IMG/VR virus record: IMGVR_UViG_3300020195_000966 | Span: 1-40,734 of that record | Length of the DNA: 40,734 nucleotides | Source of the DNA: a virus | Strand: one strand, 5' to 3' | Shown here: positions 1 to 24,207 of the stretch, piece by piece | Layout of the letters: each line of letters begins with the position of its first letter | Position numbering within the stretch: position 1 is the stretch's first letter | Made by a program: the position numbers and the translations under genes | The notes under the pieces: generated by a model | The model's database searches: none | Seen by the model: the letters and a program-made list of their open reading frames with translations, nothing else | What the model was told of the DNA's origin: nothing

Positions 1-166
1 CGGTGACACCCGTCGGCCCGGTCGGACCTGTCGCGCCCGTCGGCCCGGTCGCGCCGGTGAAGCCTGTGGGTCCTGTCGGTCCGGTGAAGCCCGTCGCCCC
101 GGCACTGCCGCCGCTCCCAGCTTGCACGTCGAGTGCCGCGCGGGCCGCTGCTGCTGTTGGGATCAT
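1..166 (-). CDS. collagen-like Gly-X-Thr fibre protein, N-terminal part (runs off the window)
   Basis: Only the first 55 codons are present. After a short Ala-rich leader ([12 protein letters not shown]...) and a Gly/Ser stretch, the reading frame becomes an uninterrupted collagen triplet repeat of GFT, GPT, GAT and GVT units. Gly-X-Thr repeats form triple-helical stalks in bacterial and phage fibres such as BclA and phage tail collagens, and their threonines are known O-glycosylation sites. The ATG lies 9 bases after the stop of the upstream glycosyltransferase, and an AGGGAG ribosome site overlaps that stop. The gene therefore belongs to the same operon as the sugar cassette. I infer a tail fibre or appendage stalk. 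The repeat is clear; the C-terminal head that would define its role is outside the window. The opposite-strand Pro-Val-Gly frame is a shadow of this repeat. Confidence 0.75.
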
Positions 167-175
167 GGCCGCTCC

Positions 176-949
176 CTATGCTCGGTCCCAGAACGTGATC
201 GGCAGCGACGGGTCGTTCCACGGCGTCTTGTGGCACTGTGCCAGAACCCCGACCGGATCGCCAGGAGGCTCCGCCGGACCCCACTTCGCCTGATACCTCG
301 CCCGGTTCAGCGCGAAGTGGTGCCGGACGTGATGCGCCGCGTCTGGTTCCATCTTTGTCGTCAGAGAACCGTGGTGCAGGAACCTCGCCTCGGGGATCAT
401 CTTCGGCGTGTGCCCGGCGAGGACGACGCGCGTGTAGTAGTCGTTGTCCTCAAAGTAGGCGGGGCGGTAGCGTTCGTCGAACGTCCCGAACCTCTCTGTC
501 GCCCCCCGCCTCAGCATGAAGAAGGCGAAGTCGCAGGAGTCGACGGGCCGCTCGGGCGACGTGTGGTTCCTGTCCAGGCCGCTCCAGATCATCGCCTCGG
601 GGTTCGCCTCTCCCCATGCCGCCATCGCGTCTACGGACTCGGCTTCGGCTTCCACGTCGTTCGCCGTGAGCAGGTACAGGTCGTGTTGGCCCTGGCCGCA
701 CCCCCAATTCCAGGCTCCCGCCACGCTCCGCTCCACTCCGGGCTCGTGCAGGACGCAGACCCGATGCTTCGTCTGCCGCTGGCAGTATCCCTGAAGATCG
801 ATGGGGCCAATCTGGTGAAGCCGTGTGCAGGCGAGGTAGATCGTCAGTTCGTGGACGTCGCTGCGCAGCCTCGCTACGGCCCGCTGCGTCGCTTCGATGA
901 GCGCCGGGTTCTGGTAGATCCAGACGGGGATGGTCACTGCGATCTTCAC
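176..949 (-). CDS. family 2-like (GT-A) glycosyltransferase
   Basis: A 257-residue protein with the outline of a compact GT-A glycosyltransferase. The N-terminal strand is KIAVTIPVW. The donor-site region reads LLTANDVEAE in place of a standard DxD. The C-terminal acceptor region is typical of GT2 enzymes: FGTFDERYRPAYFEDNDY, followed by RFLHHGS. It starts at GTG with AGGAG overlapping the stop of the upstream truncated paralogue, 3 bases away. It closes the sugar cassette and directly precedes the collagen-like gene, so attachment of sugar to that fibre is a reasonable inference. Donor and acceptor cannot be read from the sequence. Confidence 0.75.
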   Translation of the reverse strand: MKIAVTIPVWIYQNPALIEATQRAVARLRSDVHELTIYLACTRLHQIGPIDLQGYCQRQTKHRVCVLHEPGVERSVAGAWNWGCGQGQHDLYLLTANDVEAEAESVDAMAAWGEANPEAMIWSGLDRNHTSPERPVDSCDFAFFMLRRGATERFGTFDERYRPAYFEDNDYYTRVVLAGHTPKMIPEARFLHHGSLTTKMEPDAAHHVRHHFALNRARYQAKWGPAEPPGDPVGVLAQCHKTPWNDPSLPITFWDRA

Positions 950-952
950 CGC

Positions 953-1282
953 TTACTCCTCCACAGCTTCTGGCTGGTAGGCGTCGCCTGCTCGTATGGC
1001 TCGAATTCGCGAATACCCGTTCGCTGCGGCGATCCGGAAGCCGTGTGCGACCGCTTCGTCCGTGGATCGCCAGACGCCGGGTTCATACGCCACGTCTACG
1101 ACCACGGCGTTTGCCCGCTCGCACGCCTCCCGCAGCGGGCCGGGGTTTATCACATGAAGCCGCTCGCACACCAAGTAGACCGTGCTTTCGGCTGGCAACG
1201 AAGCGACGGTATGAAGAACCTGGCGGATGTTGTCCATCACCAGCATTTCCACCGGGATGACGAACGCGTCACTTGCCGCCAT
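953..1282 (-). CDS. truncated glycosyltransferase-like paralogue (N-terminal half only)
   Basis: This 109-residue protein aligns with the first 110 residues of the neighbouring 257-residue glycosyltransferase. Shared segments are T-[VI]-YL-[VA]-C-x-RLH-x-I near residue 40, the EPGV-x-RS motif near residue 70, and an A-x-D at the donor site. It stops just where the acceptor half should begin. An ATG with GAGGAG six bases upstream and a 14-base overlap with the previous gene support translation. It could be a duplication remnant, a nucleotide-sugar-binding partner of its neighbour, or a decayed gene. The frame is intact to a clean stop that carries the next gene's ribosome site, which favours retention. 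Confidence 0.6.
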   Translation of the reverse strand: MAASDAFVIPVEMLVMDNIRQVLHTVASLPAESTVYLVCERLHVINPGPLREACERANAVVVDVAYEPGVWRSTDEAVAHGFRIAAANGYSRIRAIRAGDAYQPEAVEE

Positions 1283-1826
1283 GATGCTCCTCGCAGTTGT
1301 AAATCACGTCGCAGCACCATCGGATGCCGTGGCTGTTCACCGTCGCGACGATGCAGTCGAAGTCGCTCCCGTTGCCGATGCCCCACGGCTTCAATTGGTC
1401 CCGCGGGCACGCCAACTGCGCGCCGCCGACGTTGCCGAATTGCATGACTGGCTCTCTCCACAGGACTTTCCCGTAGTGCAGCATCCTGAACACCAGCGGC
1501 TTGTGGAACCGCATGTTCCGGCGCACGGCCGCCACCGCCCCGTCAAGCAGCTTGTCGTCGTCGTCCAAGTGCATGATCCAGTCGGCCCCTGATCGTGCGA
1601 TGCCGTGGTTGCGCTGCGCGTTGCCGAACATGCTGACCGGGTCGCTGTGGTGGCTGTAGCGAACTCGCGGGTCACGAACCTCGTCGACCGCAGCCTCCGC
1701 GTCTGGCCGATGCCCGTCGCCAACCACTTCGATCGTGGTGTCGGCGTCGAGCTGGTGCATGGCGCTGGCGATGGCTCGCGGTAGCGTGGCGCGTCCGAGG
1801 GTCGGCAGGATGATCGCCAGCTTCAC
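1269..1826 (-). CDS. glycosyltransferase family 2 protein
   Basis: A 185-residue GT-A type enzyme. It begins KLAIILPTLGRATLPRAI, the usual GT2 opening strand and helix. It has QRNHGIARSGADWIMHLDDDD near residues 71-95, where the DDDD holds the divalent metal and nucleotide sugar. It is short for GT2 (typically 230-300 residues) and lacks a long C-terminal acceptor region, ending in a Cys/His-containing tail (IRWCCDVIYNCEEHH). GTG start; a GTGA overlap of four bases with the dehydrogenase gene and a GAGGAGG ribosome site indicate translational coupling. A role in the virion or surface glycan pathway is inferred from the cassette. Confidence 0.8.
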   Translation of the reverse strand: MKLAIILPTLGRATLPRAIASAMHQLDADTTIEVVGDGHRPDAEAAVDEVRDPRVRYSHHSDPVSMFGNAQRNHGIARSGADWIMHLDDDDKLLDGAVAAVRRNMRFHKPLVFRMLHYGKVLWREPVMQFGNVGGAQLACPRDQLKPWGIGNGSDFDCIVATVNSHGIRWCCDVIYNCEEHHGGK

Positions 1827-2629
1827 GGCGCCACCTCCTCGGCCTTCTCTGCGGCCGCCGCCACATCGGCTGCGAACGCCGCGTCGGTCAGTGGCATCGT
1901 GCCGTCACGCACGCTCCGGGCGAACGTGTCGAGCATCGACTGCAACGGTTCTGGCGCGTCTTGCTGCTGATCGCTTTCCGCTAACGCCCCGTGCTTCGCT
2001 CTTGCACGCCACCGCCGTTCGCGCGGCCCGTAGGTGGCTTTGATGCGGAAGGTTCCCGTCGCCAGCCAGTCCCCCCTGATGTCCGCCTGATCGTGCGACA
2101 GGGTGGCGGCCGTGACTCGCGGCACCTCTCCTGAGGCCATCCGCAAGATGGCCAGGTCGTGTACGGCCAGATCCCAGAGCGCGCCTGCGCCGCCGTGGCG
2201 CGGCCTATCAGCCGACCTGACGGCGCTGATGCCGTTTGCATGCCTGGCGGCCGCGCAGAAGAACGGCGCGTCGCCCAAGTAGCACGAGACGTAGTCCACC
2301 ATGACCGTGCATCCCGCCTCGCGTGCCGCACGGTGGATCTCCATGCACGCCGCCGACGCTGCCGCCAGAGGCTTCGCGGCGATAACATGCTTGCCTCGTC
2401 GCAAGGCTTCCAGCACCAACGGAGCGACACTCTGAAGCGGCACGGAAACAACAACTGCGTCGCTCTGCCTCCATAGGCTGTCGAGGCTTGCCGTAGCGCA
2501 GGCGACGCCCTGAGTCGCGACGGGGTCAATGTCCCACGCCGCCACGAGCTCGCAGCATCGAGAACGGCCGATTGCGGAAGCGACCCGCGAGCCCCACACG
2601 CCATATCCTATTTGCCCGATGCGAAGCAT
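1823..2629 (-). CDS. Gfo/Idh/MocA-family sugar oxidoreductase
   Basis: A 268-residue NAD(P)-dependent dehydrogenase. The Rossmann signature GYGVWG is at residues 8-13. The family EKP motif appears as AKP with lysine near residue 86. The substrate-domain D-L-A-V-H-D motif, with the conserved Asp and His, is near residues 153-158. It is about 60-80 residues shorter than most family members. The ATG overlaps the TGA of the aminotransferase gene (TGATG). Next to an aminotransferase and a hexapeptide acyltransferase, it matches the WbpB/WlbA position in pathways that oxidise C3 of a nucleotide sugar before amination. The specific sugar is inferred only as a 3-amino-3-deoxy type. A much longer open frame upstream is an overlap with the aminotransferase gene in another frame. 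Confidence 0.8.
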   Translation of the reverse strand: MLRIGQIGYGVWGSRVASAIGRSRCCELVAAWDIDPVATQGVACATASLDSLWRQSDAVVVSVPLQSVAPLVLEALRRGKHVIAAKPLAAASAACMEIHRAAREAGCTVMVDYVSCYLGDAPFFCAAARHANGISAVRSADRPRHGGAGALWDLAVHDLAILRMASGEVPRVTAATLSHDQADIRGDWLATGTFRIKATYGPRERRWRARAKHGALAESDQQQDAPEPLQSMLDTFARSVRDGTMPLTDAAFAADVAAAAEKAEEVAP

Positions 2630-3429
2630 CACGATCCCCTTCCAAGTCGCGCACGCACCACCGCCGCCGCCGCTTCGGCTATGGGGCAGTCGCCGGTGAT
2701 GCCACGGTTCCTGTATGCCGGCGTGTCGTAGACGACGTTCGGATAATAGCCGTCCGCGACTCCGTATCGCCCCAGCCCGGAAAGAACTGCTCCCCAATGG
2801 CTGGTCAGGACGTGCAGACCGATCACCGCCAAGGGCTCCGCCATTCGGAAGTTGAAGCCGACGTGATGAAAGCTCCTCCCGCCCGAATCGCCCTGGTTGA
2901 CGATGGCGCGGATCGCGGCCTCGTCCAGTCGCGATCCCGTCGGGAAAGCGATCATGCCGCCCTCGAACGTGGACAGATTCTTGGTCCGGTAGAAGCTGAA
3001 GCACCCTGCGTCGCCAACCGTTCCAGCCATACGTCCGTCGCGTTCTGCGCCGAGGGCCTGGCACGCATCCTCTATGATGACGGCCCCGGCGGCGGCACTG
3101 CGGACGCCTTCCATGTCGCACACCTTGCCGAAGAGATGCACAGGGACGACTGCTCGCGTGGTGGCACGCATCCGTTGCCGTAGCGAACCCGGATCCAGAA
3201 GCAAATCGCTAGGCGTCACGTCGGCGAACACTGGCGTGGCCCCGGCGAACAAGATTGCATTCGCGGTCGCGATGAAGGTGAAGGGGCTCGTCACCACCGT
3301 GTCCCGCTGCGTCATCTTCATCGACATCATGCAGGCGGCGAGCGCGGCCGTTCCGCTGTTGACCGCGATGGCGGCCCGGACGCCCAGCTTTTCGGCGAAC
3401 GCCGACTCGAACTCGCGAACAGCGCCCAT
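2629..3429 (-). CDS. DegT/DnrJ/EryC1-family sugar aminotransferase
   Basis: A PLP-dependent sugar aminotransferase of 266 residues. Visible features are NSGTAAL (phosphate-binding start), the IEDACQA aspartate near residue 121 that contacts the pyridine nitrogen, and the Schiff-base lysine in SFYRTKNLSTFEGG near residue 150. A GFNFRMAEP substrate loop follows. Family members are usually 360-400 residues. Here the region between the NFRM loop and the C-terminal DCPIAEAAA helix is shortened by about 90-100 residues. I chose the ATG with AGGA eight bases upstream, 11 bases after the acyltransferase stop, over an ATG 66 bases earlier that would overlap that gene. Likely WbpE/WlbC-like amination of a 3-keto nucleotide sugar. 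Confidence 0.82.
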   Translation of the reverse strand: MGAVREFESAFAEKLGVRAAIAVNSGTAALAACMMSMKMTQRDTVVTSPFTFIATANAILFAGATPVFADVTPSDLLLDPGSLRQRMRATTRAVVPVHLFGKVCDMEGVRSAAAGAVIIEDACQALGAERDGRMAGTVGDAGCFSFYRTKNLSTFEGGMIAFPTGSRLDEAAIRAIVNQGDSGGRSFHHVGFNFRMAEPLAVIGLHVLTSHWGAVLSGLGRYGVADGYYPNVVYDTPAYRNRGITGDCPIAEAAAAVVRARLGRGS

Positions 3430-3440
3430 GCTCCAGTCCT

Positions 3441-3839
3441 TTACCGTATGGGGGACATCGTGGCCTGCGCCCGTGCGCCGACCCACAACGTCCACGCCGG
3501 CACGTCCCGATCAACTATCGAGCCCGCGGCGATCATGGCCCCTTCGCCTATGCTGATGCCAGGCAGAAGGATCGCCCCCGCGCCGATGGAAGCGCCGCGT
3601 TGCACCGTGACGCCTCGCCGAGTCCATTCCCCAGACGCCCGCGGCCAGTTGTCGTTCGTGAAGCAGCAGTGCGGCCCCACGAACACCTCGTCGCCCAGGA
3701 CCGTTCCGGGGCAGATGAACGCGAAGGCTTGTATCTTGCACTTCGCCCCGACGACAGCCCCGCCTATTTCGGCGAACGCCGCGACGCGTGTGCCAACACC
3801 AATCGCCGAGCCGTACACGTTGGCGGTTGGGTGAATCAT
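3441..3839 (-). CDS. left-handed beta-helix (hexapeptide) sugar N-acyltransferase
   Basis: A 132-residue acyltransferase built of hexapeptide repeats ([LIV]-G-x4) along almost its whole length, from VYGSAIGVGTRVAAFAEIGG to ISIGEGAMIAAGSIV. The middle carries VGPHCCFTNDNWPRA, the FTND..PR loop seen in N-acetyltransferases acting on 3- or 4-amino sugars (WbpD/WlbB and QdtC type). It is short, as in single-domain members that trimerise. It sits directly before the DegT and Gfo/Idh genes, completing a dehydrogenate-aminate-acylate set. Acetyl-CoA as donor is family knowledge, not visible here. Confidence 0.8.
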   Translation of the reverse strand: MIHPTANVYGSAIGVGTRVAAFAEIGGAVVGAKCKIQAFAFICPGTVLGDEVFVGPHCCFTNDNWPRASGEWTRRGVTVQRGASIGAGAILLPGISIGEGAMIAAGSIVDRDVPAWTLWVGARAQATMSPIR

Positions 3840-3861
3840 CGGCTAAGGGCACGCCTCGGCC

Positions 3862-4701
3862 CTACCTCTTTATCAGCAGATTCCAGACCCGGTTGGGGTC
3901 ACTGGCGGCTACCTCACGCGGTTCCACCGGCTTCCACCAGCCGTCGTAGCCGATGTTGTGCAGCACCCCGACGTTGCAGCGATCCATCGCCTCGGCAAGA
4001 AGCTGCTTCTGGACATCCTCCGGGCCAAGAAGGAAGCCCGCGTGCTCGAACAGGATGCTGCACTTCGGATTGGCGTCCATCAGGGCCTGCGCGCCACGGA
4101 TGACTTCGTAGTCCATGCCCTCCGCGTCGATCTTGATGAAGTGGACATCGCCTCGGACGAGAGCGTCCAGCCGCGACACGCCGACCGGCTCCGAGCACTC
4201 GTCCTGCCGATGCGGATGGTCCTTCGGCGAGGGCAGCAGGGACGCGGAAGTCGGGTTCCCTCGCTTCCACCGCAGAACGCCTTCAGAGACGCTATCCCCG
4301 ATGGCCAGCGGGCTTGCGTCCGCGTTGGAGCATCCGTTGATTCGAGTGTTCTCTTGCAGGAACTCGAAGCTGCGGCTGTTCGGCTCGAAGGCGAAGACGT
4401 GGCCCTCGGTCGCGAGCTTGGACAGCAGGACGGTGAAGACGCCGTGGTTCGCCCCCACGTCGATGCACCGCCAGTTCGGCTTCACGAAGCGGACCACGGC
4501 CATCGCCGTCCACGACTCCCAGAAGCCGTCGAGGATCAGGTGCGGCCCCATGTGCTCGTCGGCCAAGTCGACGTAGAAGGGATACTGCCCGAAGAGGCGG
4601 CACATCGCCCGCATCGGGTTGATCGGGTGGGAGGCAGACCGCAGCCTGCACCAGTCCTCGAACTCGTCTCGCGACCGCTCGCACAGCTTCCGAATGTCCA
4701 T
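3862..4701 (-). CDS. FkbM-family SAM-dependent methyltransferase
   Basis: A 279-residue class I methyltransferase. The SAM-binding motif is CIDVGANHGVFTVLLSKL, then VFAFEPNSRSFEFL (acidic ribose-binding loop) and the FkbM signature HFIKIDAEGMDYEVIRGA. FkbM enzymes methylate hydroxyls of sugars and polyketides, and they are common in glycan-decoration clusters. I chose the ATG one base after the stop of the upstream transferase gene; a longer frame upstream only overlaps that gene. Together with the neighbouring sugar genes it suggests an O-methylated sugar, although the acceptor is unknown. Confidence 0.82.
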   Translation of the reverse strand: MDIRKLCERSRDEFEDWCRLRSASHPINPMRAMCRLFGQYPFYVDLADEHMGPHLILDGFWESWTAMAVVRFVKPNWRCIDVGANHGVFTVLLSKLATEGHVFAFEPNSRSFEFLQENTRINGCSNADASPLAIGDSVSEGVLRWKRGNPTSASLLPSPKDHPHRQDECSEPVGVSRLDALVRGDVHFIKIDAEGMDYEVIRGAQALMDANPKCSILFEHAGFLLGPEDVQKQLLAEAMDRCNVGVLHNIGYDGWWKPVEPREVAASDPNRVWNLLIKR

Positions 4702-4702
4702 G

Positions 4703-6355
4703 TCACCCCGCTTGGTTGCTGACCGCCTGCGGAACCATCTCGACCTTGCACCGCTCGTGGTCCAGCCACTCGCCGCGCCAGACCCCGTCGCCCCCTTCAC
4801 GGAGCAACATCGTCGGAACGTAGTCGACGTTCAGGATGGCGAGAATGCCGTCGAGAACCGACCAGAAAATCTCGCACCGGGCCGAGCCCTTGCCGATCCG
4901 GTTGTCCTCCAGAAGCCGCATGGCCCGGTCGTCGATGCCCAGCCTGCGATAGCGGAACGTCGACCCGATGAGGCGTCTCTGCGTCACGCGGTCCTTTCCC
5001 GAAGGAGACTCATTGTACCACAATCGGCCGCTCCAGACACGCCTTAAATCCTCCAAATGACGGTGGCAATGGGCGGCATTCGTCAGGCAGTCCTGGCCGT
5101 GGGGATAGCCGTGGAGCGTCGGCTTGTTCTGGCAGCCGTGCTCGAAAAGCAGGTTGCCGTCGAGGCCGTATTGGTGGATGGCCCCGCCGTTCCAGCCGCA
5201 CGACTTCTCGGGCATGGCGTAGTCGCGCCCCACCTTCGCCCAGGCCAGATGGTAGATCGACTTGTCCCCGAAGACGAACTTGTAGGTCCAGTCGCTGTGG
5301 TCGTTGAGGAACTTCGCGACGGCGATCTCGTGGTGGCACTTCCGCTTGTCGATGACGAACTGGCCGGACTCGAAGTCCACGTTGGCGCGATGCTTCATGC
5401 CCAGGTTCTCCCACACGACGGGAGGGAGCCATTCGGTGCGGCCGTCCACCTGCCCTTGGGGCGGAAGGTCGGGCCAGAAGATCGCGCCCGTGTCGCGGTA
5501 GCGGCGCTCGCCAAAGAGCGGCGTCGGGTCCGCGATGGGGATGTTGTCGGCATCGAGGAACAGGACTTCTTCGTGGCTGCACGCCATGACGGCCGCCAGC
5601 TTCGACTCCCAACCGGCCAGGATGCGGAACTTCTCCTGCTTCTCGAACTCACGCAGGTCGATGACGGAAACGTCGTGCGCGGCGAAGAGTGCGGTCAGGG
5701 TCGGATCCCATTCGAGCGGGCCGAGGTGCGCGAACGTGATCGGGAGCTTGCAGCCGAGCCGGCGCAGTTCCTTCACCATGACCCACGCGCCCGGCAGGTA
5801 GCCGTGGTCGAGGCATTTGCCGCTGGACCAGCCCGACTTCGCGGAGACGCATGAGACGATGCCGCGGCCCTTGTAGCGGCCTTCCGGGAAGATCGGGGCG
5901 GCGACGGCCACCTCGTCCAGAAGCTGGATGTGCGCGTCGCGGACGTTGTCCCATCCCGTCCACCCTTCCGGGAAATTGCCGGGCGGGCCACGCAGGACTT
6001 CGGCGACCGTGGCGACCGGGGTGTTCGGTCGAATCTCTTCGGGAGTCGGCATCGTCTCCTCGTACTCTTCGCAGGACAGGCAGCAGGCGGCAGACCCGTT
6101 GTTCGGACCCTTGGTGCAGCGATCGTGGACTTCGCAGTCGTAGACGTGCTTGGAGTCGCAGTCACACGGCGCGCGTTCAAGGATCGGCCCCAGAAACCTA
6201 CACGACTTCGTGCGGCCTGGCAAGACCGGCGACGACACGTTCTGGCCGTCTCCGTCCCAGAGGGATCGGTAGTCGAATCGCGTCGTGTAGAGCATGCAGA
6301 TGTGGCACGTCTCTGGCTGCGGCGGTTCGGCGGCGTGTTGGCACGGACGCGGCAT
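4703..6355 (-). CDS. GT71/MNN1-like glycosyltransferase with Cys-rich N-terminal domain
   Basis: A 550-residue protein of two parts. Residues 1-105 are cysteine-rich (PRPCQH, CHIC, CRFLG, CDCDSKHVYDCEVHDRC, CCLSC), probably metal-binding. The rest resembles the MNN1/GT71 mannosyltransferase fold. It has VLFLDADNIPIADPTPLF with DAD near residues 268-270, then GAIFWPDL, ESGQFVIDK and FGDKSIYHLAWAK in the family's order. Such enzymes transfer mannose or related sugars in eukaryotes; bacterial and phage relatives are poorly characterised. I chose the start at MPRPCQH, with an AGGGTG ribosome site; an ATG 51 bases upstream is possible. It is the first gene of the sugar cassette. Confidence 0.75.
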   Translation of the reverse strand: MPRPCQHAAEPPQPETCHICMLYTTRFDYRSLWDGDGQNVSSPVLPGRTKSCRFLGPILERAPCDCDSKHVYDCEVHDRCTKGPNNGSAACCLSCEEYEETMPTPEEIRPNTPVATVAEVLRGPPGNFPEGWTGWDNVRDAHIQLLDEVAVAAPIFPEGRYKGRGIVSCVSAKSGWSSGKCLDHGYLPGAWVMVKELRRLGCKLPITFAHLGPLEWDPTLTALFAAHDVSVIDLREFEKQEKFRILAGWESKLAAVMACSHEEVLFLDADNIPIADPTPLFGERRYRDTGAIFWPDLPPQGQVDGRTEWLPPVVWENLGMKHRANVDFESGQFVIDKRKCHHEIAVAKFLNDHSDWTYKFVFGDKSIYHLAWAKVGRDYAMPEKSCGWNGGAIHQYGLDGNLLFEHGCQNKPTLHGYPHGQDCLTNAAHCHRHLEDLRRVWSGRLWYNESPSGKDRVTQRRLIGSTFRYRRLGIDDRAMRLLEDNRIGKGSARCEIFWSVLDGILAILNVDYVPTMLLREGGDGVWRGEWLDHERCKVEMVPQAVSNQAG

Positions 6356-6406
6356 TGCACACCCTGTTCGTGGTATACGGGGGGTCCGGAACCCCTTCAG
6401 GAGCAT

Positions 6407-6506: not shown

Positions 6507-8210
6507 TCACTCCGTCACCACGATCTTGATGGCGCCGGTCGTTCCGGTGCATCCGCATAGCCCGGTCATCCCGGCGATGAACTCCGCAGCCAGCGGCAGG
6601 CACGGTCCTGTATTGCCGTAGGAAATTTCAATTTGACAGCTATCGAGGAACGACACGTCAAGCCTGAAATCATTGCTGTTGAGACCGGTGCAGTAAAACT
6701 TCAAACGGATGTTCGTCGTTCCGCAAAACACCCGTTCCCCGACCCATTTTTGCGTTGGGGCATCGTAGACCAGCGTCACGACGATGCCGCCGCCCAGGCA
6801 GGTGCATGTCGACGTGCTCTGCGTGATGGTCGCGTAGATCGTCGTCGGCAGCAGATTGGCGCAGCAGTTGGTCCTGATGCCCGTGCCCGTGCCACCGCTC
6901 GTCGACCCCGACCTGCTACTTGAACCTGACCTACTTCCGCTACCGGAACCTGATCCACTTCCGCTTCCACTGCCTGAACCAGAACCACTGCCTGAACCTG
7001 ACGCCGAGCCGCTGCCTGAACTTGATCCGCTGCTAGAACCTGAGCTGCTGCCTGAACCTGATCTGCTGCCTGAGCCGCTTCCTGAACCTGAGCCGCTACC
7101 GGAATCTGATCCACTTCTGCTTCCACTGCCTGAACCAGAACCACTGCCTGAACCAGAACCACTGCCTGAACCAGAACCACTGCCGGAACCTGATCCACTT
7201 CTGCTTCCACTGCCTGAACCAGAACCACTGCCGGAACCTGATCCACTTCTGCTTCCACTGCCTGAACCAGAACCACTGCCTGAACCTGAGCCGCTACCGG
7301 AACCTGATCTGCTGCCTGAACCGCTGCCTGAACCTGAGCCGCTACCGGAACCTGATCCACTTCTGCTTCCACTGCCTGAACCTGAGCCGCTACCGGAACC
7401 TGATCCACTTCCGCTTCCACTGCCTGAACCAGAACCACTACCACTGCCTGAACCTGACGCCGAGCCGCTGCCTGAACTTGATCCGCTGCTAGAACCTGAG
7501 ATCGAGCCGCTACCGGAACCTGATCCACTGCCAGATCCCAATCTTGACCCACTACCAGACCCCGATCCTGAGCCAGATCCGCTGCCCGACAACGAGCCAG
7601 ACCCACTACCACTGCCGCTTCTTGACCCTGAACCACTACCACTGCCGCTTCCCGAACCCGAACCGCTGCCCGCGTAAAATCCGCTACTGGACCCAGAACC
7701 CGATCCGCTACCACTGCCCGAACCCGAGCCGCTACCGGATCCCGATCCGCTACCACTGCCGGAACCCGAGCCACTGCCGCTTCCAGAACCCGAACCACTT
7801 CCTGATCCTGATCTACTACCGCTCACCCCCGACCTAGAGCCAGAGCCGCTTTTCGGCCCTGACCCGCTGTAGGCCGGCAAGCCGCAGCACGCTCCCACGA
7901 AGACCTTGCGACCTGCAGCCTGGCCGACCAGCACACTACCGATCCGCCCAAGACCAACCCCACAGCATTCCCCTTGGCCATAAACCTTGCGGCCGCCAGC
8001 AATCCCTACCAGGATCGCCAATTCTCGTACGGCATTTACAGGCCCGGCAAACCCCACGCAAGAAGGTCCAGTAGACGACCTTGAGCCAGAACCAGATCCC
8101 GACTGTGACCCTATCGACTGAGTGCTGCGACATGTGCCCACGTACACGCGTCGACCCGCTGCCCGGCCGACGTGTAGTGCCTCAAATCGCTGAAGCTTCG
8201 GCAAGGTCAT
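6507..8210 (-). CDS. Ser-Gly repeat virion protein with Cys-rich C-terminal domain
   Basis: A 567-residue protein in three parts. Residues 1-120 hold three copies of a short motif: [30 protein letters not shown] and [15 protein letters not shown]. Residues about 120-425 are almost pure Ser-Gly dipeptides with occasional Arg, Ala, Asp or Ile. The last 140 residues form a Cys-rich beta-type domain ([43 protein letters not shown]). It starts with an ATGA overlap with the upstream tail gene, so it is co-translated with tail components. I infer a flexible linker or fibre displayed on the tail. The serines could be glycosylation targets for the cassette that follows. No family was recognised. Confidence 0.65.
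6930..7850 (-). repeat. low-complexity Ser-Gly coding repeat with higher-order duplications
   Basis: About 900 bp of degenerate six-base units encode Ser-Gly on the minus strand and Pro-Glu-Pro on the other strand. Above this, longer blocks are duplicated. The 60 bp at 6985-7044 recurs exactly at 7441-7500, and 18-bp units containing CCTGAACCAGAACCACTG repeat many times between 7120 and 7440. The pattern points to growth by recombination or slippage. Confidence 0.85.
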
Positions 8211-8992
8211 TCGTTGGCGTCCACATACCAGCACTCGTCGCCATCAGTCCACGACTTTGCCGTCGGATCATAGATCTGCTCGACGGCCGGATAGCGGCCA
8301 TCGACTTTGACAAGAGAGGTGATGCGAACGAATAAGACGATATGGGCCAAGTAGAAGGAATATTTTGTCGAGCTTCCTTTGTACCCCTCAGCCAGCCAGA
8401 CATAAGTGTTCTCTGCAACAGTGGTGTTTCCGCCTAGTTCATAGGCGCTCAGCACTCCTGTCCGACCGTTGGCTAATATGCCAAATGAACCGGGATACAA
8501 CTGTTCTGCTTCGGACCAGCTATATGGATCGGTGCCTCCCGTTATGCAGGCGAATATCCAGGTGCAGCAAGAAGGCCTGCTGAACAGAACATAGTCGTCA
8601 TAACCGAAATGCATCCAAACGATGCTATCGTTTTCAGTATAGAGTTCATTCTCTTCATACGCCGGGAGGAAATCAAAGTTGGTCGGATCGCCACTCCCTC
8701 CAATGCCATGTCTCTCGGCATCGGCAAAGGTTCCATCTCCATTCTCGAGGACCTCTATCCAAGAATAGGAGTCTGATTCGTCAACAGACCCAGGGAACCG
8801 CGCTATGATACGAGCCCGCACCCAGCGGCTATTGGGTGTAGTGAAATGTATTCCATTTCCACCTGCCGTGACGCTGACGGCCCCGGTAGCTGTGATATTG
8901 GACGAGGAAGCCAGAGCATCCGACAACGTGTTAAGAGCACGAGTTGACGGACGCGACTGTCTGCTGAACGGGGATCGGGGTACAATTCGCAT
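8207..8992 (-). CDS. predicted distal tail protein, unknown family
   Basis: A 261-residue soluble protein, mostly beta-type by composition and rich in Tyr, Trp and Gly, with no membrane segment. The N-terminus is basic (MRIVPRSPFSRQSRPS). The C-terminus has LAHIVLFVRITSLVKVDGRYPAVEQIYDP. I do not recognise the family. The position, between the gene after the tape measure and the Ser-Gly repeat protein, is where baseplate or tail-tip proteins lie. It starts 3 bases after the upstream stop and ends with an ATGA overlap into the next gene. Confidence 0.55.
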   Translation of the reverse strand: MRIVPRSPFSRQSRPSTRALNTLSDALASSSNITATGAVSVTAGGNGIHFTTPNSRWVRARIIARFPGSVDESDSYSWIEVLENGDGTFADAERHGIGGSGDPTNFDFLPAYEENELYTENDSIVWMHFGYDDYVLFSRPSCCTWIFACITGGTDPYSWSEAEQLYPGSFGILANGRTGVLSAYELGGNTTVAENTYVWLAEGYKGSSTKYSFYLAHIVLFVRITSLVKVDGRYPAVEQIYDPTAKSWTDGDECWYVDANE

Positions 8993-8995
8993 GTA

Positions 8996-9976
8996 TCACG
9001 GGACTGTTATAATGCTTTCATCAGTAAGCGGAAAAGAGCTGAACAGTTCTCCAAAATCTTTCAAGCTGTAGACGACCTGACTAGTGCCCCCTTCGCTGGG
9101 CGGAGGAAGGCCATCATGAGTCAGATATCTATAGGCATAAGGCTGCAACAGCTTTCCATTGTATTGCAAGAAGGTATTGTGGTTCACTGAACCATCGCCT
9201 TGTGGATCGAAGTGTTTAAACTTCATTGTGATGTCGTAGTAAAGACGATTGTCAAACCAGCGGTAAGGCTTGACTTCAGCATGGGTGTAGAGAAGAGTTT
9301 GCGGGTGGAAAGTCAAACTGCGGCTCTCTACACCCATGACTTGTGCATTAACAGAACCAAGCAGTTGGCTGATGGCTGTCGGCAAACCCGGCACCCGATG
9401 CCAAACGATCATAATCTCCGCAGAAGGCTGGATACGGCCGTAAGATCCTGTAACTTGTACACCTTGGACACCACCCGGCTCCGACCACCTGAGGGAGCCG
9501 TGCGGAAGAGTCAGATATTCTGCAGAGGGTTGTACCCAGATAGATACAAATCGAGCCAAGCAAGACTCGTAGCCTTCGTCGTCGTACTCCTCCCTTAGAT
9601 ACTCGTCGGACAAGAGTCGGTAGTGCAGGGTTTCATAACCGATGCTGACACGAGCCCATTCGGTAACAGCAGATCTAAGTGTCGTGTTCCACTTTGTATT
9701 GCCAATATGCTCTATGCTCTCTATGGCTGCAGGGTACATGAAATTGACAGGACCTGTACCGAAGTCTACCTTATAAGCCTCTGGTAGTTCTCGAAGAACT
9801 ACCGCATGGCCGTCTACACCTTCTAAACTCGCACTGCCGAACATGGCTGTAAGGAACTTCCAGCGAGTCTCCCACGGTGTGTCAAAGATGCGACGTGCCC
9901 TAAAGCCGTCAGAGCCCATCGATTCCTGCGGAGAACTAGGACGTTCATGATACTCGATACCCTTAAGGAAAGGCAT
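8996..9976 (-). CDS. predicted distal tail / tail-tip protein
   Basis: A 326-residue protein whose ATG shares one base with the tape measure stop (TAATG), with GGAGGTG seven bases upstream. Composition is beta-rich, with many aromatic residues (MPFLKGIEYHERPSS, YPAAIESIEHIGNTKW, AEVKPYRWFDNRLYYDITMKF). In siphoviruses the gene after the tape measure usually encodes the distal tail protein; that role is inferred from position only. No domain was recognised with confidence. Confidence 0.6.
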   Translation of the reverse strand: MPFLKGIEYHERPSSPQESMGSDGFRARRIFDTPWETRWKFLTAMFGSASLEGVDGHAVVLRELPEAYKVDFGTGPVNFMYPAAIESIEHIGNTKWNTTLRSAVTEWARVSIGYETLHYRLLSDEYLREEYDDEGYESCLARFVSIWVQPSAEYLTLPHGSLRWSEPGGVQGVQVTGSYGRIQPSAEIMIVWHRVPGLPTAISQLLGSVNAQVMGVESRSLTFHPQTLLYTHAEVKPYRWFDNRLYYDITMKFKHFDPQGDGSVNHNTFLQYNGKLLQPYAYRYLTHDGLPPPSEGGTSQVVYSLKDFGELFSSFPLTDESIITVP

Positions 9977-12900
9977 TAAGGTGCACCTCCAAGAATATTT
10001 TGAAGATAGGGTGTCCACTCAGTAAACGTCTTGTTGCCCTCTTGCAGCTCTTTAAGCATCTTCACCATGGTCTCCATATGCATCTTCTTGATTTCTCGAG
10101 TAATGGGATCATCGCCGAGAGCAGTGACCTGAATACGCTTGTAAGCCTCGTCGACCGAGGAGTATTGAGGAGTTGCCTTGAAAGATTGCATGGCATAGGC
10201 CATCTGCTGGAGGCCAGCCATACGCTTGTCCTTGGCCTCTTGAGCTGGCTTAGGCGGAGCACCTACGACACCTAAGCCACCTTTACTAATAAGGGCCGAT
10301 GCTACGTTGTAACGTTCCGCTTTCTTTATGTGGGCTGTGTCAATTTCTTCATCTTCGTTGACAACAGCCTCTTTTTCTCTCCATATCCCTTTCGCATGAC
10401 CGAAGGTGGCTACACGAACAATGCTGTTACCCCACAGCTTCAGAGCCTCATTTGCTTGCTCCACGCGACTTGGGATTTCTGGTTCGAAATGCACTCTTTT
10501 CATTCTCGTCGCCTTTGCCATTTCCTCGAGTCGTGTGGCAGCCTCCTCTTTGGTCTTTGAAGATTTAATGACACCCTGTATTTCGGGGTCTTTAAGAACT
10601 TCTTGCTCCGACCCGGTGTAAACTCTAGCCCGGAGGTTTTTTTCTTTTGCTGCTTCACCTTCCAAAAGTCCATCATGGTTAAGTTCCTTGTACAACTGAA
10701 ACCCAACTAGCGCAATTGCGGAAAGCGCCGCAATAACAAGGCCCATAGGGGTCAGAAGAGCGGTAAAGATGGTTACGACGGAAGTGACTATAGAGACAAG
10801 GCCCGCAAGGCTAGCGATGAACACCCCTCCTATGATGCCCCACTTGATTATAAAGGCAATCCACCCCTTGAATGCAGGCGAGGCACCGCTCACCGCTTCG
10901 GCCAGAGCTTGAATGAAAGCTGAAAGCTGGATGATCTCGGGCATCAGAGCCATGCCGAGCTGGCCAGCAAGAAGCGTCACAGAGCCGGTAAGTGTGGCCC
11001 AGGCATCAGGCGAGGCGGCCTGGATCAGAGCTGCTCCGGTGGCTGCGAGGCCTAAAGTGATGCGGCTGACCGCGTTAGCAAAATTCTGCAGGCCGGCATT
11101 GAGCTTGTTCAGCCGTTTTACAAAACCCGTCGCCTCTGGAGGTGACGCAGCTGTAGGAGTAGACCCCGTTACAGCACCAGCAGCAACCCCAGTTAGAGTT
11201 TTTGTAGGTTCAGGAGGAGTGGCCTTTGCTGTAGTTTCGGCAAGTTTATCTTTTGCGCGTTCTTCGAGGTTTTTCTCTAGCACCACTTTAAGCGGCAAAT
11301 TGTCCGGAGTTGCAAGCGGAGGAGTAGCTGGAGAAGTAGATGCAGCTTGCTTTTCCTCAGAGGCTTTCCTCTCCGCGAGCCATCTTTCTTGGTTACGTTT
11401 AGCGTATTTCGCTAATCTTTCTGCGCGAGCTTCAGAAGCAGCTGAAGGAGCAGAAGCAGCTGGAGTTCCTGCAGGCTGAGGAACAGAAACAGCTGAAATT
11501 TCTGTAGACGTAGGATCAGGAACAGCTGGAGAAGTAGACGCAGCTTGCTTTTCGCTAGCGGCTTTCCTCTTCCCGAACCATCTTTCTTGGTTACGTTTAA
11601 AGTATTTCGTTAATCTTTCTAGAGTTCCTGCAGGCGGAGGAGTAGAAGCATCTGAAGGATCAGGAGCATCTGGAGAAGTAGACGCAGCTTGCTTTTCGCT
11701 AGCGGTTTTCCTCTTCCCGAACCATCTTTCTTGGGTACGTTTAAAGTATTTCGTTAATCTTTCTAGAGTTCCTGCAGGCGGAGGAGCAGCTGGAATTTCC
11801 GTAGCGTCGGGAACTGAAACTTTCCTCGGGGTACGTGCCCAAGTGTCGTAGCGAGCTTCGTCGGCTGCACGCGCCTTTTGTTTAGCGGCCTCGCGTTCCT
11901 TATCTTTCGCCTCGTCAATTTCGGTTTCTTTTCGCCACTCCGCCGCCAGCCGCCTCTGCTCCTTCTTCTCCAAATCCGCAGCTGAAAGAGCAGGAGCAGC
12001 TGGAGGGGCAGGCGGAGAAGCAGGAGCAGCTGGAGAAGCAGGAGTAGACGGAGAAGCTGGACGGGCAGACGGAGAAGCCGGAGCAGCTGGAGAGGCAGGC
12101 GGAGGAGCAGAAGCAGTTGAAGTAGCAGGCGGAGGAGCAGGAGCAGCTGGAGTTCCTGCAGGCTGAGGAGTAGAAGCAGCTTGCTTTTCGCTAGCGGCTT
12201 TCCTCTCCTCGAGAAACTCCCCTCTCCTACGTTCATGGTATTTCTCTAGCTCTATTGCTAAAAGGACCTCGCCGGCTTCGTCAAATATGTCGCTAAGCGG
12301 AGAAGTATCCCCTGACGCAGCCCGCTTTGCGAGGTACTCTTTCCTAAAAGCTTGTCGCTCTTTTAGTGCCGATACTGCGTATTTCTCTTCTATTTCTACT
12401 TCTTTGTTGTACCGCAACTCTGCATCTGAAGGAGCAGGAGCAGCAGGAGCAGTAGGAGCAGCTGAAGGAGCAGACGGAGAAGCAGGAACAGCTGGAGGGG
12501 CAGACGGAGAAGCAGCTGGACGGGCAGGCGGAGAAGCTGGAGGGGCAGGCGGAGGAGCAGGAGTAGCTGAAGGAGCAGGCGGAGAAGCAGTAGCAGCTGG
12601 ACGGGCAGACGGAGGAGAAGGAGCAGCTGGACGGGCAGACGGAGGAGAAGGAGCAGCTGGAGGAGCAGGAGCAGCTTGCTTTTCCTCAGAAGCTTCCCCA
12701 GCCGCGAGCCATATTTCTTGGTGACCTTCCGCGCGCAATCTTTCTTTGTTAGCTTTAGAGTATGTCGCCATTCTTTCTGTGAGAACTTTATCCCAGTCTG
12801 CTGAAGGAGCAGGAGCAGCTGGAGAAGCAGTTGAAAGAGCAGGAGCAGCCGGAGAAGTAGGAGCAGCTGAACTTACCGCTTCTTTACCGCCATCGCGTTG

Positions 12901-13755: not shown

Positions 13756-13766
13756 TTGCTGTACGC

Positions 13767-14500
13767 CTATTCCTTACCTACCGCTTCCTGTTTCTGTTCC
13801 TGCTGCTGCTTTTCCACCCACTTGGCGGCGACTTCCTCTTCCGATAACCCCCGCCACTCTTTCCAGACTTTCCAGAAGGTGTCCTTCTCTTCCGTGTACT
13901 TGCTAAAGGGGCTGCCGGGGATATTGAGCTTACTGGTATCCTCGGGGCGGAAGAGAATGTTGCGGACTTGGTAAGGGGTGAGATCGCCGATCTGGGATAG
14001 AGTGAGATGGAACGGATCTTTAGTCAGGGCAGCAAACACGTCTTCTATACTCTGCGCCCGGCGGATAGCGTGCTCTACATGCTCGCCGGGCTCGTCGCGT
14101 TTGGGTCCGCATTCGCCGCCGACATCTTGTCGAGGACCTCCTCCATCTGCTTCTTGAGAATCGCTTCCACCGTTGCCGCCGAAATGTCGGGGTGGTTGGG
14201 CTTCAGGCAGAGAGTGACAAGGACAACAAGGTGATGCAAGGTTGTCATGGCCTGGGCCACGGCGGGACCGCCGAAGTTGTAATAGCCCGAGGAGATGTCC
14301 CGATGCACCGAAGCCAACAGCTCTCGATACTCGCCATCGCTGCAGTACACCTTCATCCGCTTGATGGTCTTCAGGGCATGGTCTTCCAGATGTCGCTCGA
14401 ACTCTCCTTGGATCTTATAAGTCCAAGGAGAAAAACGATAGGACACACCCTCGTGATCGAGCGTTGTGCCTATTCCAAGAGCAGCTGCTGTTGAAGTCAT
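13767..14500 (-). CDS. tail assembly chaperone GT fusion made by -1 frameshift
   Basis: The upstream frame (from 14500) carries the heptamer CCCAAAC at 14105-14099, phased as C CCA AAC, a canonical X XXY YYZ slippery site. A -1 shift there enters an open frame continuing RDEPGEHVEHAIRRAQ and on through SLSQ-like helical sequence (LTLSQIGDLTPYQVRNILF) to the stop at 13767. The product has about 244 residues: 134 from the first frame and 110 from the second. In tailed phages, G and GT proteins bind the tape measure during tail assembly, and their genes lie just before it, as here. The second frame also has an internal GTG at 14039, but the coding-like sequence extends upstream of it to the slip site. 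This supports frameshifting rather than a separate start. Confidence 0.8.
14075..14500 (-). CDS. tail assembly chaperone G-like protein (unshifted product)
   Basis: A 141-residue helical protein read without frameshifting, ending ADPNATSPASM just after the slippery heptamer. The core has LEDHALKTIKRMKVYCSDGEYRELLASVHRDISSG, and a Pro-rich short tail follows the slip site. It lies between the tail-tube genes and the tape measure, the conserved position of lambda G-like chaperones. The identification rests on position, length and slippery site; sequence similarity in this family is normally low. Confidence 0.75.
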   Translation of the reverse strand: MTSTAAALGIGTTLDHEGVSYRFSPWTYKIQGEFERHLEDHALKTIKRMKVYCSDGEYRELLASVHRDISSGYYNFGGPAVAQAMTTLHHLVVLVTLCLKPNHPDISAATVEAILKKQMEEVLDKMSAANADPNATSPASM

Positions 14501-14518
14501 TAAGAGTAGTACCTGTTA

Positions 14519-15427: not shown

Positions 15428-15460
15428 GGATCACAAGGCCCTAATATGAACAAGGATCAG

Positions 15461-15916: not shown

Positions 15917-15956
15917 TGTGAAAAATACCTGAAGTTGTGCGAAATATGAATAATTC

Positions 15957-16412: not shown

Positions 16413-16453
16413 GGGAGGAAACGTCCTTTAATGTCTAGGGAGAGAGATAGTTA

Positions 16454-16981: not shown

Positions 16982-17003
16982 TGTATCCTAGAAAGTAGAA
17001 GAA

Positions 17004-20386: not shown

Positions 20387-21823
20387 TCAGCCTTCCACGA
20401 GCGAGTCGCAGAGGATGAAGCTGGCTTCGCGGAGCGGGGCCGCATCGCAGTAGAGAATACCTCGCAACCACGTCTGGTCGTTGGTCAGCGGAGTGTCGCC
20501 GCTATTGCTCATCTGGAACTCCATCACGCCGCTGAGGGCGATCAGGTAGTCGTTGAAGTCGCCGCCCAGGACATAGCTGAGGGCGGTGCTGCTGCCCTTT
20601 GCTCGGTTGTTCGCAAGCTGCGTGCTCTTGAACACCGGGTAGCCGCTCAGATTGCCGGGCATCTGGCGTTCGAGGCTGAAGCTGTCCTGCAGCTCGCGCC
20701 AGACATTGAAGACAAACCCGCCCTTGCCGTCGCCGGCCGTGATGGCGTCCGACCGACGGTTCACAATGCCCGCCCACAGCAAGGGCCGCATGATGAACGC
20801 CTTGAAGATCGCGTTGACATTCTCGACCTTGGCGACCAGCTTCGCCACGTCCTCGGGGCTGAAGGTGTCGCCGTCGGTGCCCGTCGTGCTCGCTGTATGC
20901 GTGCCGATCGAGGCATAGTTGATGAGGCCCTTCGGCGTAGTCGAGCTGCCGACGTCTTCGAGCAGGGTCTTGTCCATCTTCAAGGACATCACACGCGCGA
21001 TGTCGTCGCGGATGAACTGTTCGACCGAGACCGCAGCGAACCGGAACAGCTCGTTGGGAATCTTCGAGAGCACGCCCAGCTTCTTGGCCTGCAGCGTGAT
21101 GTCGCCGGTCGTCGGATGCGAGTCGGTGATCGCCGACGACTCGCCGACCCAGTAGGCCGTCGAAGCGCCAGTCTGACGCGGCAAGGTCAAGCGACCGTGC
21201 GGCGGCATCGGCATCTGGCGGGCACCAGCCTGCATCAGGACTTCGTTGTTGCGGAGAATGGTGACCAACTCGCCGAAGACCGGCATGCCGACCAAGGCAC
21301 CCAAGTTGGCGTCATCCTGCCAACTCATGGCCTTCTCGACGCCCCAGTGCTTGAGGCGAAGATTGCGGACTTCCTCCGGATTCGAACCGTGGACCGAAGC
21401 ACCCATCACCTGACGGCACTCCGTGGCCAGCCGCTCGTCTCCGAGCTGCACGGCCAGCAGATCGCTGGCGAAGGGAACCATGACCGAGTTGCCGAAGCCG
21501 CGGCGATAGCCCGCATCCTGGTAGAGCTTGCTCAGCCGGCTGTGCATGTCCAGCTCGACCTTCACATTGTCAGAATGCAGATGCCCGCCAATAAAGGCAC
21601 CCAGCTTCTGAAAGCTGAAGCCGCGACTGGTGTTGGGATCCTCGCCCGTTCGGATGAAAGGGCCTTGGGCGGCGGCGGGAGTCGGCTTGGCCAGCTCCTT
21701 CACGGTCTTGACCAGGTCCGCCTGAGTGGCTGCAAAACTGTTGATCGACTCGATCAACGTCTTCGAGGGATTGACCACCTCAGTGGCCTTAGTAGCAGAA
21801 ACTTCGGGAGGCATGTTTTCCAT
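20387..21823 (-). CDS. major capsid protein, HK97 fold
   Basis: A 478-residue HK97-family capsid protein. Residues 1-110 are a helical delta-domain-like region (TLIESINSFAATQADLVKTVKELA). The rest carries family landmarks: GALVGMPVFGELVTILRNNEVLMQAG, GRLTLPRQTGASTAYWVGESSAITDS, QAKKLGVLSKIPNELFRFAAVSVEQFIRDDIARVMSLKMDKTLLE, TTPKGLINYASIG, and near the end YPVFKSTQLANN and FNDYLIALSGVMEFQMSN. It follows the S78 protease by two genes. A second ATG at 21814 has a better-spaced GGA upstream. The N-terminal region is probably cut off by the protease. Confidence 0.92.
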   Translation of the reverse strand: MENMPPEVSATKATEVVNPSKTLIESINSFAATQADLVKTVKELAKPTPAAAQGPFIRTGEDPNTSRGFSFQKLGAFIGGHLHSDNVKVELDMHSRLSKLYQDAGYRRGFGNSVMVPFASDLLAVQLGDERLATECRQVMGASVHGSNPEEVRNLRLKHWGVEKAMSWQDDANLGALVGMPVFGELVTILRNNEVLMQAGARQMPMPPHGRLTLPRQTGASTAYWVGESSAITDSHPTTGDITLQAKKLGVLSKIPNELFRFAAVSVEQFIRDDIARVMSLKMDKTLLEDVGSSTTPKGLINYASIGTHTASTTGTDGDTFSPEDVAKLVAKVENVNAIFKAFIMRPLLWAGIVNRRSDAITAGDGKGGFVFNVWRELQDSFSLERQMPGNLSGYPVFKSTQLANNRAKGSSTALSYVLGGDFNDYLIALSGVMEFQMSNSGDTPLTNDQTWLRGILYCDAAPLREASFILCDSLVEG

Positions 21824-22953: not shown

Positions 22954-24207
22954 TCAGTTCATCCTTCGGCCCGTGGCCTTGAAGATCTCTTTCTTGAGCG
23001 TCTCGCTGTTGGCTTGCACGCTTTTCAGGACATCGAGCAGCTGCAGTTCCCACTCAGCAGGCCCGGCGTGCACGACGGGGACGGGAACGGGAACGGGTTC
23101 GGGCTTCTTTTCGAGCAGGCCCTTGAGATCGGCGATCAGCGTGCGGTGCTCTTCCGCATTGGACTTCATTGTGTCGACAACCAGGGAGAGCGTGGTCTGC
23201 ATCGTGATGAGGGTGTCGAGCAGGATCTTGTTGACTTCGACGGTCTCGACTTTTGGGGCCGGCTCTTCGAGGGCCAGGACAGGAGCTTCGACGGGAGGGG
23301 AGTCGTCGAGAAGCAGCTTCACTTCGCCGACACGAACCAGTTTTCCCTCGGCGTACTCGAGGTCGGACTCGGCCATCTTGAGGACTCCGGAAAACGAGGA
23401 CTTGGTCGGGTCGAAACCTGGCGACCAGACACGGGCTTTAAGGGCGAACGGTTCGAGAGAGCGTCGGATGGAGGAGGGGATGGGAGAGTCGCCGACTTTG
23501 CCGCGAGAAAGGGCAGCCGTGAGGTTGTCGGTGCATTCCGGGTTGGCGGGAATCGAGACAACAGACCATTCGAGCATGGTCCACTCCAGGAACCGGAGGG
23601 GTGCCCAGCCGTCGAAGTAGATGATCTCTTCGCCGTTCGATGCCTTCTTTGGACGAAGGTCGCGGCCGTCTTCGTCACAGTGCTCGTCCTTCATGAAGGA
23701 CGCGACGTTAGGCAGGAAGCCGATCGAAGTGGAACGCAGGATCTTCTCGGCGACCAGACCAAAGACACAAGCGGATTCCGGAGTCTTGCCGTGGAACCGG
23801 CAAGAAGCTTTGACGCCGTCCTCGCCAACGACAGGAGGCATGGAGGTCGCAATCGGCAAGTCGTGGGACTTGTGGCCGAAGAAGACTTGGGGATTCTTGA
23901 GGAACTGGTCCATGGTCTTGATGCAGCCGCGTGGCATGACCACGTCACCGTAGCGGTCGCGGGCAGGAGTGGTAATGGTGAACGAGGCGGTCATATCCGA
24001 CTCGTCGACCTCCGGCTCCGGAGCTTCGGGGTCCCCGAAGGCAAGAACGTTGCTGTCGCCCAGGCGGGTGACGGCAGTGCTGAGGAAAGCGATCGACGGC
24101 AGAGCAAGGCCATGCGACCGCATCTGGCCCAGGAAAGCGGACTGCCGCTGGGCAAGGACGTCGTAGATCGAATTGTTCAGCAGGATGTCGGGGTCTTTAA
24201 TGGCCAT
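22954..24207 (-). CDS. HK97-family prohead protease (S78), with C-terminal scaffold-like extension
   Basis: A 417-residue protein. The protease domain covers residues 60-260: GDVVMPRGCI, QVFFGHKSHDLPIA (catalytic His near 112), RSTSIGFLP (Ser near 161) and LEWSVVSIPANPE (Glu near 213), in the order of the S78 family. The C-terminal 150 residues are acidic, Pro-rich and helical (LLDTLITMQTTLSLVVDTMKSNAEEHRTLIADLKGLLEK, LDVLKSVQANSETLKKEI), suggesting a fused scaffold. It would cleave the capsid delta domain and itself during head maturation. It overlaps the portal gene by 11 bases. Confidence 0.9.
   Translation of the reverse strand: MAIKDPDILLNNSIYDVLAQRQSAFLGQMRSHGLALPSIAFLSTAVTRLGDSNVLAFGDPEAPEPEVDESDMTASFTITTPARDRYGDVVMPRGCIKTMDQFLKNPQVFFGHKSHDLPIATSMPPVVGEDGVKASCRFHGKTPESACVFGLVAEKILRSTSIGFLPNVASFMKDEHCDEDGRDLRPKKASNGEEIIYFDGWAPLRFLEWTMLEWSVVSIPANPECTDNLTAALSRGKVGDSPIPSSIRRSLEPFALKARVWSPGFDPTKSSFSGVLKMAESDLEYAEGKLVRVGEVKLLLDDSPPVEAPVLALEEPAPKVETVEVNKILLDTLITMQTTLSLVVDTMKSNAEEHRTLIADLKGLLEKKPEPVPVPVPVVHAGPAEWELQLLDVLKSVQANSETLKKEIFKATGRRMN

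Follow-up and report, generated by a model that had tools for sequence, protein, structure and literature searches.

A tail-module cassette of amino-sugar and glycosyltransferase genes beside a Gly-X-Thr collagen-like gene suggests glycosylation of virion fibres in an HK97-type phage

Introduction

Why would a tailed phage carry genes for making and transferring an amino sugar directly beside a gene for a collagen-like protein? The question is raised by the IMG/VR virus record IMGVR_UViG_3300020195_000966 (40,734 bases, classed as linear), which was analysed over its full length (hereafter the window) and comes from an HK97-type phage, possibly as a fragment of its genome. On its minus strand, the genes for the portal, the head protease, the major capsid protein (HK97 type) and the tail lead into a cassette that runs to base 1 and encodes a hexapeptide N-acyltransferase, a DegT-family aminotransferase and a Gfo/Idh-family dehydrogenase (the trio), an FkbM-family methyltransferase, several glycosyltransferases (GTs) and the start of a collagen-like protein. 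The sugar coating of a virus's own fibres is known in giant viruses and has hardly been explored in phages, and no report of a phage combining the trio, GTs and a collagen-like fibre was recognised in the accessible portions of the open-licence literature. We propose, with moderate confidence, that the cassette is a phage operon that glycosylates the phage's own tail or fibre proteins with a phage-made 3-N-acyl-amino sugar. Judged from the sequence, glycosylation of virion fibres appears to account best for the position and packing of the cassette, its recurrence in other phages, and the link between collagen-like tracts and family 2 glycosyltransferases (GT2).

Layout of the cassette

The cassette (positions 6406-166, minus strand) consists of nine packed open reading frames (ORFs), located after the tail genes and on the same strand (Table 1). 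From 6406 towards base 1, these encode a Cys-rich/GT71-like protein, FkbM, the hexapeptide N-acetyltransferase, DegT, Gfo/Idh, GT2, a half-GT, a GT of the GT-A fold and the start of the collagen-like protein. The gaps between successive ORFs are 1, 22, -55, -1, -4, -14, 3 and 9 bases, and because they are small or overlapping, the cassette reads as one operon, which would be expressed late in infection. The start of FkbM is better placed at 4701 than at 4800, and that of Gfo/Idh at 2629. Pfam assigns six of the ORFs, confirming the Gfo/Idh, DegT, hexapeptide transferase and FkbM families that had been named in an earlier reading of this DNA from its letters (the sequence-only reading). Three of the up to four transferases counted there are retained (the 567-aa, GT2 and 257-aa proteins), whereas the fourth is a half-GT of 109 aa that resembles the N-terminal half alone of the 257-aa GT (38% over 69 residues). 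The 257-aa GT itself has no Pfam match; its AlphaFold model shows a GT-A fold (pLDDT 83.3), its top Foldseek matches are glycosyltransferases (E 2.1e-10), and tblastn matched it to a GT2 of Pontimonas phage phiPsal1.

The collagen-like ORF begins at 166 and leaves the record edge after 55 codons. Its 11 visible Gly-X-Y triplets carry Thr at Y in 11/11 cases, the Gly-X-Thr pattern of BclA-type proteins, and with its neighbours it scores 27.3 bits against PF01391, barely above the cut-off of 27.2. The longest in-frame Gly-X-Y run within positions 1-6400 comprises 13 triplets, compared with a maximum of 5 across 50 mononucleotide shuffles, and a tract arising by chance was rejected on these grounds. 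The sequence-only reading let the operon end in a collagen-like gene, but the ORF exits the record and the operon may extend further. A circular wrap of the record was considered and rejected: the frame stays open across the joined ends, but the sequence beyond is not collagen-like.

Table 1. Features of the window, listed from the cassette towards the head genes (positions in the window)
Feature	Position	Strand	Evidence or remark
Collagen-like ORF start	2..166	-	Cut by record edge; 11 Gly-X-Thr triplets; PF01391
257-aa GT-A-fold glycosyltransferase, GT2-like, ND replacing DXD	176..949	-	tblastn, AlphaFold, Foldseek
109-aa half-GT	953..1282	-	Paralogue of N-terminal half of 257-aa GT
185-aa GT2 glycosyltransferase, DDD motif	1269..1826	-	PF00535, 1.9e-10
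268-aa Gfo/Idh/MocA dehydrogenase, putative sugar 3-dehydrogenase	1823..2629	-	PF01408, 3.5e-15
288-aa compact DegT-family PLP aminotransferase, Lys172 in SFYRTKN	2629..3495	-	PF01041, 6.4e-65
132-aa hexapeptide (left-handed beta-helix) N-acyltransferase, FTND motif	3441..3839	-	PF00132, 1.2e-15
279-aa FkbM-family methyltransferase	3862..4701	-	PF05050, 2.4e-14
567-aa protein: N-terminal Cys-rich domain and Mannosyl_trans3 (GT71-like) GT, DAD motif	4703..6406	-	PF11051, 5.5e-25
Gly-Ser-rich 575-aa protein, C-terminal part non-repetitive	6507..8234	-	Directly upstream of cassette
Tail protein	8996..10018	-	Relatives in syntenic phages; marker of conserved tail module upstream of cassette
HK97-type major capsid protein	20387..21823	-	Served as query for relatives
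Portal protein	24197..25822	-

Enzymes and the likely sugar

Of the three biosynthetic enzymes, the acetyltransferase is the most informative. The five PDB sequences closest to it (phmmer) are two N-acetyltransferases, a WxcM-like enzyme, a lipopolysaccharide (LPS)-biosynthesis acetyltransferase and QdtC, the last three of which we take to be 3-amino-sugar enzymes. These close relatives, the hexapeptide family and the FTND motif indicate a WbpD-like N-acetyltransferase, WbpD being described in passages of PMC10622841 as acting on UDP-GlcNAc3NA. The best NCBIfam match of Gfo/Idh is UDP-GlcNAc 3-dehydrogenase, at 36.9 bits far below the cut-off of 450, and a structure search with DegT returned a mix of 3- and 4-aminotransferases, including perosamine synthases and WbpE. 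Together, the Gfo/Idh, DegT and hexapeptide enzymes appear suited to oxidising, transaminating and N-acylating a sugar, and the view that a set for 3-amino-sugar synthesis and transfer stands beside a Gly-X-Thr collagen-like ORF in the tail/fibre module gains support.

Neither a WbpA-type 6-dehydrogenase (PF03721) nor a sugar 4,6-dehydratase (PF16363) was found in this record, which is possibly a fragment. Of the candidate products, a neutral 3-acylamido sugar is accordingly more probable than anthrose or a uronic acid, although the host may provide the uronic acid or other precursors. For want of the 6-dehydrogenase in the record, the description of the cassette as complete is unproven. Anthrose, a 4-amino-4,6-dideoxy sugar (abstract of PMC6222408), had been offered as an analogy; as a pathway it is not supported, since no 4,6-dehydratase was found in the record.

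In the proposed mechanism, Gfo/Idh would oxidise C3 of a nucleotide sugar, with UDP-GlcNAc as the likeliest substrate, the compact DegT would transaminate the resulting 3-ketone, and the hexapeptide enzyme would place an N-acyl group on the new amine. The GTs would then assemble a short O-linked glycan on one of the virion proteins. Its attachment sites would most probably be the Thr residues of the Gly-X-Thr stalk, so that the collagen-like protein is the presumed acceptor, and FkbM would methylate the glycan. Such a coat might serve either shielding or adhesion.

The trio in other phages

A viral scan with DegT yielded 394 relatives, of which the best 80 were kept. Requiring hexapeptide, DegT and Gfo genes in the order of the window, on one strand and at most 100 bases apart, the trio is present in 13 of these 80 loci (a count made from the locus rows), with the genes abutting or overlapping. 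DegT is compact in four of them (L277, L280, L287, L288) and full-length in the other nine (L302, L309, L311, L314, L324, L338, L342, L343, L344). Gly-X-Thr tracts occur among the 80 only in L302, L309, L311 and L344, all trio-bearing, where two GTs and collagen-like tail ORFs converge on the trio; in L309 the GTs are Anp1/GT2 and GT2-TPR, and a WhiB gene adjoins the trio. DegT is 68-76% identical among L302, L309 and L344, and L309 and L311, both counted, have identical coordinates. Because the four belong to one lineage, they constitute one independent case. This WhiB-bearing lineage is unrelated to the window phage, and with it the cassette near collagen-like genes elsewhere, which the sequence-only reading proposed to look for, has been found once.

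Gly-X-Thr tracts and glycosyltransferases across viruses

For a wider comparison, 115 viral stretches with four Gly-(Ala/Pro)-Thr triplets were set against 120 control records collected by an unrelated GC-rich pattern, and 100 of each set were examined for GT2. GT2 was detected in 24/100 Gly-X-Thr records (14/50 and 10/50) compared with 2/100 controls (0/50 and 2/50; Fisher P 2.8e-6), with two records that seem to be one phage (G077 and G088) each counted. The first 50 controls have a median record length of 22.0 kb vs 25.1 kb and a median locus GC of 66.8% vs 66.3%. L103 and L051 likewise have GT and methyltransferase-type genes next to collagen-like ORFs, all in one orientation. At positions 1-9599 of L103, several ORFs read as GTs or methyltransferases lead into two collagen-like ORFs, and two of these ORFs were checked by Pfam.

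As a tentative generalisation, which we consider possible and hold with less confidence than the proposal for the window, Gly-X-Thr fibres of tailed phages may be O-glycoproteins as a class, modified by phage GTs; some of these phages would have their own 3-N-acyl-amino-sugar pathway with a compact DegT, and part of the viral 'wbp' genes would serve virion glycosylation.

A compact form of DegT

The DegT of the window (288 aa) matches only positions 25-234 of the 360 in the PF01041 profile, and its model has the DegT fold (pLDDT 86.7, pTM 0.85). Among the best 80 of the 394 viral loci, 25 (L270-L293 and L337) align at 43-50% identity nearly to the end of the 288 residues. Nine of these compact phage sequences (alignment A4), to which the window DegT is 44-51% identical, share its C-terminal gap and the motif HYPxVVY...GITGNCPIAE. 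A broken gene was ruled out, as the same gap is common to these nine sequences. The compact DegT genes of L270-L293 and L337 belong to aquatic phages, some of them read as T4-like, and lie inside large sugar-gene clusters. In a tally of DegT length, 27 loci were short (the window included) and 53 long, with the open-ended locus L312 excluded.

A cellular scan of 84,980 genomes gave, among its best 80 loci, two with a compact DegT as judged by coverage: L430, from a metagenome-assembled genome (MAG) of Planctomycetaceae, and L431, from an alphaproteobacterial MAG. Several other cellular loci align past residue 270 over longer DNA stretches, and the DegT alignment of L479 reaches residue 259 with no long insertion. 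Among the best loci listed, the compact form thus appears almost only in viral contigs. Alongside a phage integrase, L430 (6539 bases) carries an acetyltransferase 68% identical to that of the window, a compact DegT and a Gfo-like frame, which hints at a planctomycete host. This prophage-like locus, with further GT-like and sulfotransferase-like frames, is the closest relative of the window trio among the listed loci. In L431, Gfo, hexapeptide, FkbM and DegT genes are consecutive.

Relatives of the phage and its remaining genes

The capsid gene of the window is shared by 23 records. GT2, FkbM and DegT were each found in 0/23 of these, eight of which are shorter than 11 kb. Six relatives were inspected; they have fibre-like genes downstream of the tail genes, several with short collagen-like stretches. 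In G013, G017 and G019 a Cys-rich ORF is followed by an ORF read as GT-like (without a Pfam match in G013), and in G014 a Cys-rich ORF starts at the record end. Residues 56-120 of the 567-aa GT, its Cys-rich domain, match the free-standing fibre-module ORF of G013 at 35% (E 1.8e-14, computed against three subject sequences). Because some relatives have the Cys-rich domain and are without DegT, FkbM and GT2, the fibre-module site, perhaps with a transferase, is old in this phage lineage, and the genes for the amino sugar look like additions.

The 575-aa Gly-Ser-rich protein has no Pfam family, and an NCBIfam-type profile scan gave only repeat-type MSCRAMM matches. Its Gly-Ser stretch, at 6507-8234, is very long; shorter Gly-Ser linkers occur in fibre-region proteins of relatives (L030, L034). 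An SNase-domain protein (PF00565) is located within the tail module at 14519-15427. The right arm (25871-40734) carries long unassigned plus-strand ORFs of 948 and 855 aa, and distant relatives of the latter also stand at this divergent position in L016, L023 and L024. Against phages, megablast of positions 1-25000 gave no match, nor did tblastn with the 1259-aa protein or the 567-aa one. No relative was returned when viral records were scanned with the 567-aa protein or with a single DegT as query (the 394 came from a separate DegT scan), and the major capsid protein has no relative in the 84,980 genomes. Rfam and tRNA scans of the window were empty, and terminators and promoters showed no excess.

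Alternative explanations

Several observations weigh against glycosylation of virion fibres by the cassette. The collagen-like ORF of the window is incomplete at the record edge. Collagen tracts occur in 4/80 DegT loci vs 2/120 controls, which is not convincing as the four are one lineage, and in 0/26 short-DegT loci besides the window; relatives of the 257-aa GT likewise show no collagen excess (1/80 vs 2/120 controls). DegT was found in 0/50 Gly-X-Thr records, a subset of the 115 that includes all 24 GT2-positive ones, and own sugar synthesis therefore appears rare among them. Positional clustering is weak: of the 24 GT2-positive records, 10 have the gene no more than 3 kb from the tract, where 6.4 would be expected (P 0.05), and significance was not reached at any of the three further distance cut-offs. 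In all ten close cases GT2 and tract are on the same strand, which is usual for phage operons. Published work on similar clusters points elsewhere, as passages on GT clusters that pelagimyophages carry in their hypervariable tail-fibre region (PMC7029224) and on viral wbpD (PMC13211439) read both as host LPS modification. Transfer of a 3-acylamido sugar onto the LPS or another envelope glycan of the host, blocking other phages or shifting the serotype, is the main and a serious rival, although we judge it unlikely for this cassette. The nearest solved relatives of its enzymes include LPS/O-antigen enzymes (WbpE and the LPS-biosynthesis acetyltransferase), and the 26 other short-DegT loci, free of collagen tracts, lie in large sugar-gene clusters. 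By contrast, Pfam and hydropathy revealed no flippase, polymerase, lipid-carrier transferase or membrane GT in the cassette, whose transferases have no obvious transmembrane segment (maximum KD19 0.96-1.57); the cassette follows the tail genes, and the trio with collagen-like ORFs and GTs recurs in the WhiB-bearing phage. Actinobacteria lack LPS, and LPS is unlikely to be the general target because the WhiB-bearing lineage probably has hosts without it. According to passages of PMC10202952, WhiB indicates actinobacterial hosts.

The virion may also be glycosylated on another protein, which we regard as improbable. The Gly-Ser-rich protein directly upstream of the cassette may be a virion protein and could be the acceptor instead, the glycans of mycobacteriophages are carried by capsid and tail-tube subunits (passages of PMC12619734), and GT and methyltransferase genes of phiPsal1 adjoin its major capsid gene; yet it is the immediate next gene that has the Gly-X-Thr tract, and records with such tracts are GT2-rich as a class. 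Sugar modification of phage DNA, a role named for phage GTs in passages of PMC10202952 and PMC12619734, is very unlikely for a cassette in the tail module; the families found in general scans (no dedicated search was made) include no base-modifying partner. Least credible is an artefact in which host polysaccharide genes were joined to a phage contig: the GC content of the cassette (65.5%) does differ from that of positions 8235-20000 (53.9%), but the right arm is similarly rich (64.7%), the Cys-rich domain at the junction occurs in the fibre module of relatives, and the compact DegT has its near-exclusive viral distribution.

Comparison with known systems

If virion-fibre glycosylation is borne out, widespread 'auxiliary metabolic' sugar genes, part of which are now filed as host-LPS genes, need rereading, and the loci combining the trio, GTs and a Gly-X-Thr fibre form a defined set for tests. 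Freshwater actinophages E7 and F5 share with the window GTs and a variable island of tail-fibre and collagen-like proteins, as well as WhiB with the unrelated trio lineage; in that paper the words aminotransferase and acetyltransferase are absent and the authors propose DNA or the cell wall as GT targets (PMC10202952). The Wbp/Wlb pathway (WbpA-B-E-D-I, UDP-ManNAc3NAcA) has a set of 3-dehydrogenase, 3-aminotransferase and N-acetyltransferase to which the trio may correspond (passages of PMC10622841), whereas the window lacks a WbpA-type dehydrogenase in the record, has shortened DegT and Gfo proteins and places them in a phage tail module. BclA of Bacillus anthracis offers a densely glycosylated collagen-like region and antC/degT in a sugar operon (passages of PMC10050317), but it is a bacterial spore protein whose anthrose is attached to rhamnose. 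The mycobacteriophage Che8 and its relatives bear glycans on virion proteins, with phage GTs implicated (Freeman 2023, as cited in PMC12619734 and PMC11256854); there the acceptors are capsid and tail tube, and the citing passages mention no phage-borne amino-sugar pathway. The Mimivirus viosamine/fibre cluster likewise combines a virus-encoded sugar aminotransferase, an acetyltransferase and GTs, and according to passages of PMC4691112 a viral glycosyltransferase modifies collagen-like proteins and a fibreless mutant has lost the cluster. Mimivirus differs from the window phage in being a eukaryotic giant virus and in making a 4-amino-6-deoxy sugar via a 4,6-dehydratase. Should the proposal for the window hold, phages, like giant viruses, would make their own rare sugars and attach them to collagen-like fibres.

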